A program made the position numbers and the translations under genes. From the NCBI RefSeq assembly GCF_029227915.1, contig NC_079880.1:19778501-19842500 (forward strand): a DNA stretch of 64,000 nt, in the 5' to 3' direction. The notes under the pieces are model-generated. The model was not told where the DNA came from, made no database searches, and worked only from the letters and a program-made list of their open reading frames with translations. Numbering within the stretch: the first letter of the stretch is position 1; every line of letters begins with the position of its first letter. Origin of the DNA: Hydractinia symbiolongicarpus (taxonomy: Eukaryota > Cnidaria > Hydrozoa > Anthoathecata > Hydractiniidae). Shown here in pieces: positions 55,068 to 64,000 of the stretch.

Positions 55068-58000
55068 TTATTGGCTGCCATCTTTGTTTTCGATTGTATG
55101 TTCTCGTAACTTTTCATTTTCCTGTAACAAATTTTGTATTCGTATTTCGTTCTCATCTAATTTTCCCGCCATTCTTCGCAATTTGACTTGATATGTCAGT
55201 TTATCTTTGCATGTTTGTTCTAAATCACTCTTTAACTCTTTCTATACCGCCCCAGCTAAAATCAGTCCTGTGGGACTGATGACTTCAAAATCGAATTGTG
55301 AAACAACCACTGGTCGTCTCGCAGGCTATAAAAGCTCAAAATACGGCTTTTGAATCAGCCAATCAGATTCAAGTATTTTCGTTTCCGTGTGAGTTGTAGA
55401 TTCGGGCCAGCAACATCACAAACATTCAAAAAACAAAATGGCGAAGGCTGGAAGCTCAAGGAGAATTTCTCTTGAAGATGCTGTCAATTATATGCTTGAA
55501 ACTGATGATTCTGACATCGATTCATGTCATGGGGGCCTCAGTAGTGACGAAGAAGAAAGAATAGATAATGCTTTATTGGGTTACTACTCGGATTGGGATG
55601 AAAAGTAAGTGCTTTATCGTCCTTTTTCTGTGCTTATGCGTTTCTCGCTTGGAACCTGTCTTGTAATTATTTTATGTAACATACTTGATGTCTACTTTTA
55701 AACAGTCTCAATAAAAGGTGATGGTAAGACTTTTCTCAGGGTGATTGCTTCCTTTTATTTTTAGTGATCCAAATGCTGATGTTGAAAGCAATCTTGTCGG
55801 TCGCTCATCACCGCCTCCTTCTTCACCGCCACCGCCGCTGTCCACAAACTCGACTGAAACGTTGAACAATGAAAGTCAAGTAACTGCTCTAAATTCTGCT
55901 GTTTCTCTAACATTCTGTGCCAATAATAATGTTCCTGACCATGCCACAGTCACTAATGAGCCCAGTACGAGAATTTCTCGTCGCACGCGCCTTCCTCGAA
56001 AACAGGTTATTGATTTGGGGTCAACCGATGATGACTGCGATAACAAAGAAAACATTTGCGAGAAACATACCTCTACAAAAAAAGGTAAAAAGAAGCCAGC
56101 TAACAAGAAACCAGCCAATAAGAAGCCAGCTAATAAGGAGCCAGTAGCACATAAGAATACCAAGAGTTATGATGATCCAGATACTCCAAACATTCTACCA
56201 GATTTTACTCCGACACGTGACCCAGGATTGCATTGTGATGTTCCATTGATACGCGGCGTTCAAGAAATTGATTTTTTCCAACTATTCTTTAGTGAGGAAT
56301 TGATTCAGGATATAGTGAAGCATACTAATACATATGGCTGGAGAAACATCAGCAAAAAGAAAAGTTGTGCAAAAAAAGATGGGTCATGGAAAGAAACCTC
56401 TGTCCACGAGATGAAGCAATTTATCGCTTTACTTATGTACATGGGTATCGTGCGGCTACCGCGACACGACCGATACTGGAGTGTCAAATCACTGTTTCAT
56501 GGTTTATGGGCAAGGGAGATGCTGTCCAGGAGTAGGTTCTACGCTTTGTTGTCCATGCTACATGTTGTGGATCCTGAGGAGGAACAAGGTCATAAGCTAT
56601 ATTTAGATACACGTCAACACATATTTGCCCTATATTTTACATGCAAAAATGTGTAAAACGTCAAAGAATCAAAGTTGACTAACCTGAAACTCCTTTGTGG
56701 ACATATAAACCACCTCCTTTTTCACCTCCTTCATTGCCTCCATTGTCTCCATTGTCCTCACAATTTTCCGCCTAAAGTATTTCAAAATGCTACTGAATGA
56801 CATCTTTTTATTCACACATTGTTAATCGAATTCTTTTTATTTACTTACATCCTTGCATGGTTCACAAGGTTTGATAGGATCGTATACAAACCCTGTGGGA
56901 CAGCGGCAAACTGTGTCTTTCGTCGCTGAACATTTTTCTTTCACAATCTCATTCCTTTTGCATGACTGGCACCTGTTAAAGAATCAGTAAAATTAACAAC
57001 AGAGTGTCTTTTAATTTAATTTATCGAAAAAAAAGCTTCCTTGCTTATATAACAGATATTTTTATCCAAAATTTTATGTCGGTGAAAATCACACTGCACA
57101 TTTATAAGACTTAAGTACTACAATAACTTCCAAGCTCCCATTGATAAGAGATATAACACTGAACATATGCCGGTATTCACCGAAGAGAAACGAAATTGTA
57201 AAGTCTGTTACGCAGAGTTGAAGAAGCAAGTCCGTGTTTACACGAAGTGTTCTGCTCCACAATGTGATGTTTATTTGCACTTTACAAAAGAAAATAATTG
57301 TTTTCAGAAGTGGCATACAACATTCAAACACTAGGAAAAACATTCATTTGTGCAAATTTTCTTTTGTTTGTATTCCTGTTCTTTATTAGGATTTGAACCG
57401 ATTATTCGTCGGTTTACGATAATTCTCTAAATAGGAGGAGGCTGCTTCATGTGACCATATCTCCGGAACTAATTGTCTTTTGGACGTGAAATTTTTTGCA
57501 AGGTGTCAGAATTTTAATGGGGTACAACTTTGTTAGCAAAAATATCACTCTAAAACCAAGTGGAAGTCATTTTTTGATCAAATAATTCATTTTTACGCAC
57601 AATTTTGAAGAAATTTTCACAGCTTTTCCGCCATTATGGATTTCAATGGGTTTAGATTTTCTTTTTTTTCTTCAAAATTAAATCTTTGATACATTACCTT
57701 TCTTTTGAGGGGTCATTGACTTTCTAGGAACTAGTAAGTATTATGTTATTAGACTTTATTTAGGGTACACTTTTCCATTTTTTATGAATATTTTACGGTT
57801 ACATTTTTACTAAAATAAGAAACCGGCTTAGTTTGACCATATCTCCGGAACTAATAGTCCTTTGGACCTGAAATTTTTTGCAAAGTGTCAGAAATATAAT
57901 GGGGTACAACTTTGTAAGCAAAAACATCACTCTAAAACCAAGTGGAAGTCATTTTTTGATCAAATAATTCATTTTTACGCACAATTTTGAAGAAATTTTC

Positions 58001-61000
58001 ACATCTTTTCCGCCATTATGGATTTCAACCGGTTTAGATTTTCTTTTTTTTTTCACAATAAAAATCTTTGATACATTACCTTTCTTTTGAGGGGTCATTG
58101 ACTTTCTAGGAACTAGTAAGTATTATGTTATTAGACTTTATTTAGGGTACACTTTTCCATTTTTTATGAATATTTTACGGTTATATTCTTACTAAAATAA
58201 GAAACCGGCTTAATTTGACCATAACTCCGGAACTAATAGTCCTTTTGACCTGAAATTTTTTGTAAAGTGTCAGAAATATAATGGGGTACAACTTTTTAAG
58301 CAAAGAAATCACCCTACAACTATGTGAAAACAAGTTAGAAACAAGAGAATATAAAAACTTACCATTTTCTCTAAAAATTTCAACAGCTTTTCCGCCATTA
58401 TGGATTTTGGCCATTATGAATTTTGAAATTTTTTTTTTTTATTTGGAATCCTTGATCTTTTACCTTTCTTTTGAGGGGTCATAGATTTCCTAATAATGTT
58501 TCAATCAAAAGATATGAGGCTTTTTCAAGGGCTACCAAATTTACCATGAAATTCACGTGGTATAGAAAGAGTTAATGAAAACACATGCTCGGCTTTTAAG
58601 TTGAGCAATGTTGACTTCAAGTGTTCCATCTCGACCTCGTGTCTTTTTACTTGTATTGCGAGCTGGTCTTTTAAACGGGCGTTATCTGTTCTGTATTGCG
58701 ATAATTCTGATGTTTTGTTGCTAGTCAAGCCTGTAACAGAAAATAGAAATTTATATGATAACATACACTTATTTTGATGCCTCTAAGCTAGCTGTATGCC
58801 ATCGAAACTCCTCTTAAAAAATAGCGCATTCTGTTTGTCTGTTGGTGCGCGAAAAGAACGTTGTGTTACGGAAACACGAAATATGCGATAAATAAAGAAC
58901 GGCCGACCCAGTGGATTTTTTCATGGGACCCTGACTAGTCTATAAAACTACCCGTATTCTGCCTCTCTGCTCAAAATGGTTACGTCGCAGCTTCATTTCG
59001 GATCTCGCGAAGAGTAATTCCATTACTCATGCTGACAGGCGAACAAAAACGCATGAACTACGATAGGATAATATTGTTGTGACGGGCGAATTCACGTAGA
59101 TGTTTTTACGGGCTAACAACCGTAAACTCGTAGATAGTATATTATTGTCGGCGTTAAGCGTGACGAATTACGATCGTTTTCGTAAAGATTTTTCTTACCG
59201 TCAATAACCTATCATAATACATATCTGCAGCGTTGAAAAATAGGTTTTTCGTCAGAAATATGATCAGTTAACTCAATTTTTTAAATATTTGCAAACTGGT
59301 GGTGGTTACCTTTAAGCTAAGTGAATGCCTTCTGTTATTCTTTTTGAAATGGTGTCAAGCCTCACATAATATTCACCACTTTTCTAATTTGAACTACAAA
59401 AGTCTTTATTACGAAGTTTTTTATACATGAAAACAGCGTGGTTGTTGTTTCGGGGCAGCCATTATTTATTTTATCGTGCACGTGCGTGTGACATGTTTTT
59501 GTCAGTTAAACGTACCGTTATTGTCAGATGTCGTCATGTCGAAAGAATCTTGTCTCAGGTTTTTGATTTCATCTTCTTTGAGGGCTAACTCGTCTTCCAT
59601 TTTTAAAATCTCGTGCATTAATTCTTCAATCTTTATTTCATGTTCCTCTTTCAAGTTTTTGTTTTCTCTTTCTAAATCTTTTTTCTCACCAGATAATATT
59701 TTCATTTTAGATTCTAGCCCATTGATTTGGGCTTTAAAGTAAAGATTTTCTTCCTGCTGCTTTAAACTCAATTCTTCAAGTCTCTTGATTTTATTCTGTT
59801 TGTTTTGTTTTTCATTATTCTCTTCTTCGTTTTCTTCGTCCAGCAAGTACGTTCGGTTACCCTGCTCGTTAATTCCGACAATACTCGGTGTTATCGTTTC
59901 TTCGAGAACGAGTGTTGAAAAACTATTAGTCGTTAAGGGTGTGATCTCAGATAAATCTGAATTTTCTTCATTAGTGTATAAAAACCTTTCCTTCAACGAT
60001 TTATCTTGCTCTAGAAGGCTTTTTTCAACATCTTTAAACCTACCGACAACTTTAACAAGTTCGTTTTGTATATAATCACAATGTTTCGTTTTACTCATCA
60101 ACCCGTTTCTTAACTCGGTAAGCTGGTTTTGTAAAACTCGTTCGCATTCTTCTCGTTCCTCGAGTTCTTGCACTAAGCTCTTTATATCATTCGAATGCGT
60201 GCATTCAGATTTGTGTTCTAATTGGCCCTTATGATCAACCAATGAATCTTTGGTATTTTGTTGCCGTATTTCCTTTTCTAACGATTCAATTTCGAGGTCT
60301 TTGATCTCCAGTGACATTCGAAGTGTTGCGATTTCAATGGATCTTTCTCGTAGTTCTTTATACGCGCTGTAAAGTTTCGCTTTCATGGCCACTGCTTTAT
60401 TTTCGTCCCCAAAACTAACATCGGGCGACTCTTGCATTATTGTGCGTAATTCTTTTAATTTTGTTTTCACATCGTCCAACTCAACTTCCAAGAGTTCACA
60501 CTTGTTTTCTGCTTGGCTCTTTTCTTTTCCAACCTGCAGGACTTTTCTTCGACAATTTTCTAAATCAGTATTTAAGCGGTGATTTCGTTTTCGCGTTGAC
60601 GAAAGCAGTTCCGACAACGAATTAAAAGCACGTGATTGATCATCCTCTACTTCCTTAACATTTTTATTTTGTAACGCAAAATCCTCCCCTAATTCAATAT
60701 CTAACTCGATATCTTCAATAGAATTATCAGAAAGATTTAAAGACGTTTCTGTAACATCGAGTGAATTTGATTTTAATTTAAACATCAATTTTCGTATTAA
60801 ATCTTCTTTACTATCAAGCTCATTCTGCATTTTATCTTGCATTGAAATAAATGTTTTCGATTCATCGCGACGTCGATTTAATGCCGACAAAACTTTACTA
60901 TATTGTTCTTCTTTACCTTGCAGTTCAATTTGTAAATTCTTCACTAAACTATTTTTATTTTCAATTTCCGTTTTCAAGATATCAATCTGATTGGACCACA

Positions 61001-64000
61001 CATATTTGTCGTTACATTGGTTGGCTAAGAAATAACCGTCCCCATTTTGATTGGCTTCGCTCTGGCTGATGAGCTGATCTTGTAAACGGTTCATTTCTTC
61101 TGTTTGCGAGGCTGATTTCTTTATCCACTCATCAATGGCAATTTTCAAAGTTTTGTTTTCTTTGCTCTTTTCCTTATTCTCATACTGCGACCAATCTAAC
61201 TTGTTGGTTAAATCATTAATACTATTATTAAGTTTAAAAACCTCCTCGCTTTGCTGCTGTTGGTATGCTTTAAAAGACATTTCCAAAATCTCTCTTGCTT
61301 TTTTATTGTACACTTGCGACTGCTCGTGTTCAGTAGCCTTCGATTGAATTTCCTCCTCCAAGTCGTTGACAACTGATTCAAGCTCTTTGATGCTTTTATC
61401 ATGAGCTATTTTATCTTCATTAATGATTTTATCTCTTGCCTTAAGCTCCTCTTCTAGTTGGTCCATTACACTTTCCATCTCTTCAATCATATTGCCATTT
61501 TTGTCGATTGTAACCTTTGCATTTTTTAACTCATCCTTTAGCTTTTGTAATTCGCCTTCTTCTTTAAATTCGTTATCTTTCTCCAGAGTTAACATTTTGT
61601 CTTTTAAATCTACATTCTCCTGTTCCAGTGATGTTATCTTTGCCTGAAACTCGGTTTTGGTATTCTTTATGAATTCATTTTCCTCTGATAATTCCCTTAA
61701 ATATTCCAAAGTTCTTCCCAAATCATCTTGCACTTGCTTGACCTCTTTTTCACGGACTACATTGTCTTCTTCAAATACTTTTATTTTGTCTTGTAGTTCC
61801 TCAACTTCTTTCTCCAGTTCTTCATTGCATCCTCTTAAGATTTCCATTTCAATTTCGAGCTCCATATTCCCTTCAAATCCATCGGTATCATCAATGGGAT
61901 CTGTTTGTAAAGAACTTTCAACAAGTGTTGATTTCTCTTCAGACAACAAATCATTTGTGTGCGTTAATACAACGTTTTGGTTTTGCAAATCTTGCAACCT
62001 ATGGTGCTGTTTCTGATGTTGACGCTTCAGTTCCTCCAGTGAGGATTTCGTTTGCGATAACTCCTCTTTCAAACTGCTAATTTCGTCTTTGTTTGTTCGT
62101 GTTAATTCATGTCTTTGTTGAAAAATTTCAAGTTCTTGTTGTTTCTGTTTTATTTCATTCCTTAGGGTGGAGTTCTCGTTTTTTGTTAAGTTTAATTCTG
62201 AAGTTGTAGAAGCACTTTCTTCTAAGATGGTTTTGTACTCCTTACATTGCGTTTCAAGATTTGCTATTTCCTCTTTTAAATTCTCTTCACTTTCTTTTGA
62301 CGATTTACGAAGAACTTCTAATTCGGTTCCAAAGTTTTCGATAATTTCGTTCTTTTTCACTAAAGCCTTTTTAAGTTCCTCTTTCACCTCGTCAAAGGCA
62401 TTCTTTTCGTTGGCTCTTTCAGTTGAAATTTCGTCGACGATTTTTTTTAGTTCTTCATTTTTGTTATTCTGGTGTGTTAATTTTGATTTGGCTTCCTCTA
62501 AAGCTGACTCAGCATTCTTTAATACTTTTTCGTATGTTGCTTCTTTCGTTTCAAGATTTTCCTTTAACTTGTTTATTTCTTTTTCCCTCTCATACAAATG
62601 TTTTTTAAAATCAGTATTTTCAGAGCGCAATTTTTCTAACATAAGCCCCTCACTGGTTAAACTGTTGTTAAGGGCATTGATTTCCTGGTTTGAATAATCG
62701 AGGTTAGTATCTATTTTGTGTCTCAGTGAATGCAGTTGACTTTCCAAATCTTCAATTACTTTTTCCTGAGTTTTGACTTTTTCTTCTTCTGCATGTAATT
62801 TTTCTTTTACTTGCTTTAAATTCAGGTTTAATTTAATTTTGTCCTTTTGAGTGTTCTTTCCATTCTCTTTTATTTGCTTCTTCAGTTCTCGATTTTCTAA
62901 TTTCTTCTCCTTCATCTCTTTCGTCGCTGCATCTTTATACTTTTCAAGTCTAGCTTTATTATCAGTAATATCTTTCTTTAATGTTCTTATCACAGCTTCT
63001 TGGCTTTTTACATTCTGTGATTGGGTTTCAAGCAAGTCCTTAAGCGTTTTATTTTCGTCAATGTTAAGTTCAAGTTTTTCTTTTAAAACTTGATTGGACG
63101 TGTTAGCATCACGTTCCCCAACATTTCCCTTTCGAAGTTTTTGTTGCTGATCTGGTAATGTCATTTCTTGTAGTTTATTTTGTAATTTTTCGTTTTCATT
63201 CCGAAGGTCGTCAATGTCGTCTTGCAGTTGTGCAATATCGTCAGAATTTCGGGAATATATTTGATAGTCAATTAGGCTATCAAAAGCGTCGCGTCCGAGA
63301 GTTTGTAAAGTGTCGTGTTCTGTCAGTCCTACGTTTAGTCGGAGAATTTTAAGTTCGTCTTGAATAAATATTTCATGAGGTTTTACCTGAGGTGTCTTCT
63401 TCTTTGTTACAGCAGTTGTTTTCTTTTCATCTTTTGGCGTACTTTTTACATCAATAGGTACTACATAACCTCCACCATCTTGTTTTTGATCTGTAGGTTC
63501 AGGCATACGCTTTCTTTTGTTAGGGGTGACAGGTATACGTGTGGGTATTTGCGTTTTCTTTACTGCATCTGCTGAACTTTTTTTCTTTTCTTTTGGACTT
63601 TCTGGAATCATGACTTCATAAGGCATTAATTCTTCATAGAAAGGTTCGTCCAGGTTGATTAGATCAGTATTGGTGTAATTTGGTTGCTCAGATTTGGTAT
63701 GATTTTTTGGTGTCATTGCAAATCCACTGTCAGTGTTTCGTTGACTTTGTGGAGTAGTGGCTACAGTTGATGATTTATTATACTGGTTGACTGCAGTTTT
63801 TGGTGACATTTTGTCAAGATAGCCATCCGTTGGTGTGTTACCACTTCTGGTTGGAGTCATGCGATTAAGGTACAAATTTTGGAATTTGTCATCATCATTT
63901 GACAATGCTGATTGCGTTGCCTTCATCCTTTGTAATTCCTTATCATTTTCGTCACACTTTCTTTTCAGTTCTTCCATTTCTTTATCTTTTTTGTTTAATT
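55068..64000 (-). CDS. Large coiled-coil protein gene, interrupted by piggyBac, 5' end outside window
   Basis: Unrecognised coiled-coil protein. The main exon runs from beyond 64000 down to 59516 and is open throughout (over 1,490 codons). The last exon starts at 58730 (acceptor TGTTACAG), phase matching the donor at 59516. It begins GLTSNKTSEL and continues as coil to 58572, where a piggyBac element starts. The frame resumes beyond the element at 55231 and ends at TAA 55070-55068; removing the element and one TTAA gives 107 full codons in frame. Layout: coil, a Pro/Ser/Thr-rich basic region (TPTRSG, IPTRIPVTPNKRKR; residues about 40-190 from the Met at 63977), a short ordered stretch near 200-240, then coil to the end. 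With the element present the protein gains about 15 foreign residues and loses about 56 of its own. Confidence 0.85.
55438..56656 (+). pseudogene. piggyBac transposase, N-terminal part
   Basis: Exon 1 55438-55604 (MAKAGSSRRISL, acidic DSDIDS and SSDEEER) joins exon 2 at 55765 across a GT-AG intron and restores Asn. Then comes a low-complexity region (SSPPPPSS-like prolines; KKPAN repeated three times at 56090-56140) and the conserved entry to the PGBD domain: EMKQFIALLMYMGIVRLP, YWS and SRSRFYALLSMLHVVD. Shortly after HKLYL the likeness ends and TAA stops the frame at 56654-56656. The catalytic Asp residues of the family lie downstream in normal relatives and are absent here. Confidence 0.88.
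56684..56972 (-). pseudogene. Captured TNF-receptor-like exons inside the piggyBac element
   Basis: Two exons on the strand opposite to the transposase. Exon A, 56972-56849, is bounded by TTTAACAG and GTAAGT and reads CQSCKRNEIVKEKCS, then DTVCRCPTGFVYDP and CEPCKD; the Cys spacing and DTVCxC are those of a TNF-receptor cysteine-rich repeat. Exon B, 56771-56684, follows in frame after a 77-bp GT-AG intron and codes for a Gly/Asn/Glu-rich stalk (AENCEDNGDNGGNEGG, then LYVHKGVSG). No signal peptide, membrane helix or death domain is present. It is a fragment of a receptor gene, most simply a host fragment picked up by the transposon. Confidence 0.75.
57090..57334 (+). pseudogene. piggyBac transposase, C-terminal cysteine-rich domain
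   Basis: The plus-strand frame reads NNFQAPIDKRYNTEHMP, then RNCKVCYAELKKQVRVYTKC, CDVYLHFTKENNCFQKWH and a TAG stop at 57332-57334. CxxC, the paired Cys and the CF..(W/Y)H ending are those of the zinc-binding C-terminal domain of piggyBac-type transposases, which in known members recognises the element ends. It is cut off from the N-terminal part by the captured fragment and by stops. Confidence 0.82.
57453..58524. repeat. 382-bp tandem repeat, nearly three units, in the piggyBac right arm
   Basis: GACCATATCTCCGGAACTAA starts a unit at 57453 and, with small changes, again at 57835 and 58217, an exact 382-bp step. Units 1 and 2 are very similar; unit 3 is diverged and shortened. It contains no frame that holds. 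It lies directly inside the right terminal repeat. Confidence 0.9.
63977..64000 (-). other. Open reading frame continues past the window edge
   Basis: Upstream of the Met codon at 63977 the same frame stays open (LNKKDKE) to the last base, so this Met need not be the start and the gene goes on to the right. Confidence 0.8.

Follow-up and report, generated by a model that had tools for sequence, protein, structure and literature searches.

A young piggyBac element in Hydractinia symbiolongicarpus carries 519 bp of a TNFRSF16-like gene in place of its transposase core

How does a piece of a receptor gene come to lie inside a DNA transposon, in the very place where the catalytic part of the transposase should be? 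This question is raised by a locus in the window, a stretch of 64,000 nucleotides (G000:C6:19778501-19842500) of the Hydractinia symbiolongicarpus assembly (480.9 Mb, 76 contigs). The initial annotation had described there a piggyBac element with TNF-receptor-like exons in place of its catalytic core. That observation is real: the locus has the inverted ends, a duplicated TTAA, the N- and C-terminal pieces of the transposase, and two exons on the reverse strand that are bordered by splice sites. Its interpretation as a gene capture was also supported: the segment is foreign to the transposon family, and a matching receptor gene exists elsewhere in the genome. The best explanation, to which a probability of roughly 0.87 can be assigned, is that a young piggyBac element acquired 519 bp copied from a TNFRSF16-like gene on contig C10 during the repair of a break, and that it represents an animal Pack-TIR.

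The whole element, including both TTAA copies, occupies 55232..58575 on the plus strand and measures 3336 bp from one terminal inverted repeat (TIR) to the other. The matching terminal repeats reported earlier are indeed present as 13-bp inverted ends that agree in 13 of 13 positions, the left one at 55236..55248 (plus strand, preceded by TTAA) and the right one at 58559..58571 (minus strand, followed by TTAA), so that the copy has perfect ends and a TTAA target-site duplication. Transposase exon 1 (55439..55608, plus strand) starts with MAKAGSSRRISL and corresponds to the start of the annotated P0001; its splice end was placed by eye. Exon 2, whose start was likewise placed by eye, runs as the N-terminal part of the transposase over 55764..56599 (plus strand) to the left junction. 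The captured segment follows, and the Cys-rich C-terminal part of the transposase is resumed at the right junction (57119..57334, plus strand), where its first four bases, TACA, also occur in the donor. Both transposase pieces thus flank the insert, as had been proposed. The right arm contains a 382-bp tandem repeat in 2.7 copies (57444..58489, plus strand), which is part of the element family. A shorter repeat, with a 15-bp unit encoding KKPAN-like residues, is found within the transposase at 56086-56144.

An exact search of the assembly for TTAA plus the 13-bp end gave 22 matches, 11 per direction, which form 11 pairs; the reversed control pattern gave none. Such a pattern misses elements with altered ends. 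A similarity search, the counts of which are lower bounds and in which 19 of 19 first-look candidates were scored, recovered these 11 elements; apart from them, it found nothing but the donor. Five of the 11 elements (L028-L031 and L034) have an intact open transposase exon 2 of 661 codons. L028-L031 are 3731 bp long each and L034 is 4112 bp long; the excess of 381 bp is about one unit of the 382-bp tandem repeat. In L033, a 50-bp deletion breaks the transposase frame, and the core is absent from the remaining five (the window copy, L032, L035, L036, and L037). Compared with L028, the ten other copies are 99.7-100% alike over long common stretches, with the exception of L033 and L035 (98.6 and 98.8% with gaps counted) and of L034 and L037, the repeat-bearing right parts of which align at 93-99%. 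L037 also contains a 4.55-kb insertion (L037:1181-5732) with inverted ends TGTTCCGTACG and, by eye, integrase-like reading frames; this is probably another, nested DNA transposon.

The window element and its ten relatives belong to the piggyBac superfamily, as indicated by the TTAA sites, the inverted ends, and the DDE_Tnp_1_7 domain. The L028 product covers positions 3-349 of the 349 positions of this Pfam profile (E 1.4e-87), and the full-length product matches the structures of the piggyBat (1.5e-51 in PDB) and piggyBac transposases. An annotated H. symbiolongicarpus transposase in the protein database is 99% identical. The C-terminus aligns with that of piggyBat, and its match to zf-Tnp_2 (E 0.023, 15.7 bits) is below the cut-off of 24. 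The catalytic triad of piggyBac is D268/D346/D447 (PMC2533014). Aligned through the structure matches, aspartates 313, 393, and 509 of the full-length transposase, which lie in AVDER, FFDNF, and GVDKSD, are its presumed counterparts.

Exactly this region is missing from the window copy. Relative to L028, element positions 1-1367 are kept, and the sequence resumes at 2280. The 912 bp lost correspond to exon residues ~287-590 and thus to each of the three presumed catalytic aspartates; of the 349 positions of DDE_Tnp_1_7, the piece before the gap matches only 3-103. The catalytic middle is therefore absent where the receptor exons sit, just as the initial annotation had it, and the full-length sister copies with the same 13-bp ends hold a normal transposase core at this place.

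The gap is filled by 519 bp on the minus strand (56600..57118), antisense to the transposase; the ~400 bp first assigned to the segment (56645-57060) proved too short. The transposase frame stops 18 codons into the insert. In donor order, the captured DNA consists of a portion of the intron preceding exon B, exon B itself (56972-56849, minus strand, 124 nt), the B/C intron, exon C (56771-56684, minus strand, 88 nt), and a portion of the intron that follows, and the two properly spliced reverse exons had been located correctly from the start. Exon B encodes the latter portion of one TNFR repeat and some of the following one, and exon C encodes the juxtamembrane stalk. Together, they amount to 212 nt, a length that is not divisible by three and would shift the frame if the pair were used as a cassette. 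Of the 70 residues encoded, 67 are identical to an annotated TNFRSF16-like protein. The fragment covers positions 18-39 of the 39 in the TNFR_c6 profile and scores 21.1 bits against a cut-off of 29.4. The six-Cys repeat starts in an upstream donor exon outside the captured segment. For this reason, the earlier description of a TNF-receptor-type repeat plus stalk holds for the stalk and the receptor identity and fails for the whole repeat; the frame is not Cys-complete because the repeat is split between exons A and B, and the captured segment contains only the portion in exon B.

The presence of introns shows that the segment is unprocessed, which means that a gene fragment was captured at the DNA level; a retrocopy was rejected for the same reason. 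The possibility that the 519 bp are a regular part of the element was also rejected, since none of the other ten copies matched the segment. No second copy carrying the insert was found in the assembly.

The donor could be identified. When used as a DNA query, the insert matched one other place in the 481 Mb (E 1.2e-204; both of the two candidates were scored, one being the insert itself), where it is 97% identical to a receptor gene at C10:24951.5-24953.9 kb. This is the parent gene with the same intron that the initial annotation had proposed to look for. Seven donor exons spliced by hand, with one small exon skipped, give one open frame of 289 aa that is 96% identical over its full length to 'tumor necrosis factor receptor superfamily member 16-like isoform X2'; a partial donor protein of 150 aa had no match in the protein database. 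The hand-spliced protein passes the curated cut-offs for TNFR_c6 (33.9 bits against 29.4; residues 34-73) and for Death (27.7 bits against 22.6). A hydrophobic membrane stretch can be recognized by eye between these domains, and the best PDB chains for the death domain are those of TNFRSF16. The predicted protein, with its Cys-rich repeats, membrane stretch, and Death domain, places the donor in the TNF receptor superfamily. The annotated donor protein has 12 matches in the genome, i.e., seven donor exons on C10, two in the window copy, and three others on C5, C3, and C12 with an identity of 32-36%. A donor paralogue in the assembly was rejected as the source, the next best place being only 36% identical. 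On the donor side, similarity to the window element stops at the capture borders, and the donor does not lie within a TIR transposon of the family.

The junctions give some insight into how the segment could have been joined. The left junction (56599/56600) is blunt, with 0 bp of overlap against the reference donor, and the right one has a 4-bp microhomology, TACA, common to donor and element. On the whole, the microhomology is weak; the chance of an overlap of at least 4 bp is 0.024 per junction. Among the five core-deleted copies, host DNA fills the gap in the window copy alone; L032, L035, and L037 show 1-bp overlaps, and L036 has a 5-bp filler. The right breakpoints of all five fall within 71 bp (element 2210-2280), a clustering that was not equalled in any of 200,000 uniform draws, if independent events are assumed. 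The left breakpoints form two groups, at 959-995 and 1367-1405. Taken together, the loss of the core in 5 of 11 elements, the nearly common right breakpoints, and the short filler point to errors of repair or replication inside the element. Hairpins were considered as the cause of the break sites; the comparison was post hoc and its outcome mixed, and the folding-energy ranks among 182 span high to low (2, 21, 21, and 53 for the right-breakpoint windows; 32, 67, 130, 173, and 182 for the left).

It can be proposed that a break or stalled synthesis occurred within the transposase gene of a young piggyBac element. A template switch during repair would then have copied ~519 bp from the TNFRSF16-like gene on C10, and this chromosomal sequence would have been joined to both arms of the element, bluntly on the left and through the 4-bp microhomology on the right. 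The product would be non-autonomous, with both ends retained and with unprocessed receptor exons in antisense orientation relative to the transposase; intact sister copies could presumably still mobilise it. Gap-filling and fork-stalling schemes of capture have been presented by Tan et al. (PMC8277862). The excision of piggyBac is described as being repaired by the annealing of TTAA overhangs, without DNA synthesis (PMC3878927). For this reason, template switching at a break or stalled fork within the element is preferred here to the repair of an excision gap; such a break or stall then has to be assumed.

Age can be estimated separately for the element and for its insert. The arms, compared with L028 over 1364 + 1453 bp, show two substitutions and indels of 3 bp and 1 bp (~0.1% divergence), and the capture is recent. 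An alignment of the insert with the reference donor (524 columns) contains 14 substitutions and one gap (2.7%). Were half of this divergence younger than the capture, ~35 changes would be expected in the arms; the probability of two or fewer is 3e-13, and the divergence of arms and insert differs with a Fisher p of 2e-9 (13 of 519 was used for both values). Most likely, then, the difference predates the capture, with another donor haplotype as the template. A template from a haplotype other than the reference is plausible, and its fit to heterozygosity is not tight: at the published mean of 1.33% for Hydractinia (PMC11067881), which the divergence of the insert exceeds, the probability of at least 13 differences in 519 is 0.025. 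Error-prone repair synthesis is another possible origin of these differences. The initial annotation had offered recent capture or selection to account for the open frame; recency is confirmed and sufficient, and selection is not needed.

When the flanks are joined with one TTAA, an open minus-strand frame is restored that ends ...LKAEHVFSLKSDLEQTCKDK...TIENKDGSQ and a stop. Upstream on the minus strand, at least 1498 codons form an open coiled-coil reading frame; the flanking gene stretches lie at 55071-55231 and 58576-63998 of the window (minus strand). The two frames would appear to be one large gene with the element in its last coding exon. In this haplotype, the element removes the last 54 residues from the C-terminus of the coiled-coil gene, which in Pfam gave only Spc24 and Fib_alpha, both below the cut-off. 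The segment may have been captured elsewhere, after which the finished Pack element jumped into the coiled-coil gene; any further copies of it would have disappeared or be missing from this haplotype. The perfect ends, the TTAA duplication, and the nearly unchanged arms fit such a course of events, and the intact sister copies could have supplied the transposase. However, the assembly holds no second insert-bearing copy, and the site is equally consistent with capture in place; this order of events is a realistic option at somewhat below even odds.

A role for the captured piece has to be considered as well. The receptor exons are open, have splice sites, and are oriented opposite to the transposase and in the same direction as the disrupted coiled-coil gene, so selection might keep them as part of a chimeric transcript or as a source of antisense RNA against the donor receptor. 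This seems improbable, as frames in an element of such youth can be open without any selection, the captured Cys repeat is incomplete, and the exon pair would not keep a reading frame. Similarly far-fetched is the broader idea of a live Pack-piggyBac whose antisense small RNAs dampen the death-domain donor receptor and whose break-prone site spawns derivatives. If it were true, the intact sister copies would still mobilise the Pack-piggyBac, and a transcript of the transposase strand would be antisense to the mRNA of a single donor. Most likely, the window element does nothing for the host beyond shortening the coiled-coil gene in this haplotype. Least probable of all is an assembly artefact, with sequence from the other C10 haplotype misplaced into the element: the divergence between the insert and the C10 reference is about what might be seen between alleles, and haplotype separation has troubled published Hydractinia assemblies (PMC11067881), but the borders lie inside the transposase, the right one has a 4-bp overlap, 912 bp of the element are lost, and nearly the same stretch is absent from four sister copies.

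Capture by repair within a young piggyBac element is thus retained as the best account, and this case is unusually complete. A single assembly provides the donor, the recipient family, its intact relatives, and both junctions, and the family is a young one. As Hydractinia colonies are open to genotyping, the haplotypes are directly checkable. The excision of piggyBac, described as synthesis-free, set against 519 bp of copied DNA and four sister deletions whose right breakpoints nearly coincide with that of the window copy, raises the question of how piggyBac elements lose their cores and gain filler.

The window element is a Pack-TIR of the piggyBac superfamily. Like the animal Pack-TIRs described by Tan et al. 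(PMC8277862), it has non-TE DNA between the arms of a TIR transposon, an identified parental copy, and a single copy in the genome; a multicopy type, in which movement after capture is evident from several copies, would need more than the one copy found in the assembly. The inserts in that study are short (median 224 bp), and the 519 bp found here are also short. Microhomology, with a median of 2 bp, was reported there for 190 of 281 cases, at either breakpoint or at both; here, it is seen at one junction. There are also differences (PMC8277862). Of 370 Pack-TIRs, 323 were hAT or TcMariner and 47 were neither, and the word piggyBac is absent from the main text of that paper. Their TE copies were mostly old (median divergence 18.3%), whereas this family is nearly identical and has intact copies. 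Their breakpoints were a median of 4.6% of the TE size apart, whereas 912 bp, about a quarter of the element, were lost here. Among the open-access papers listed, judged by title and the beginning of the abstract, none describes host-gene capture inside piggyBac, in agreement with the earlier remark that such capture is rarely reported for this group; no claim of a first case is made.

Other systems are similar in part. In Ds-type derivatives of abortive gap repair, the core is lost and the ends are kept, and L032, L035, L036, and L037 have the same form; in contrast, the window copy has 519 bp from a host gene in its gap rather than 0-5 bp. Pack-MULEs and gene-capturing Helitrons also carry fragments of host genes, with unrelated transposases (PMC6431247, PMC8277862). 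According to Tan et al. (PMC8277862), 481 of 1337 rice Pack-MULEs are multicopy, whereas here there is one copy with a replaced core. Teratorn, a fusion of piggyBac and a herpesvirus, carries a virus genome (PMC6431247), whereas the window element carries a piece of a host gene. Finally, in CSB-PGBD3, a host gene took up a piggyBac element, and in Hydractinia the reverse has taken place.
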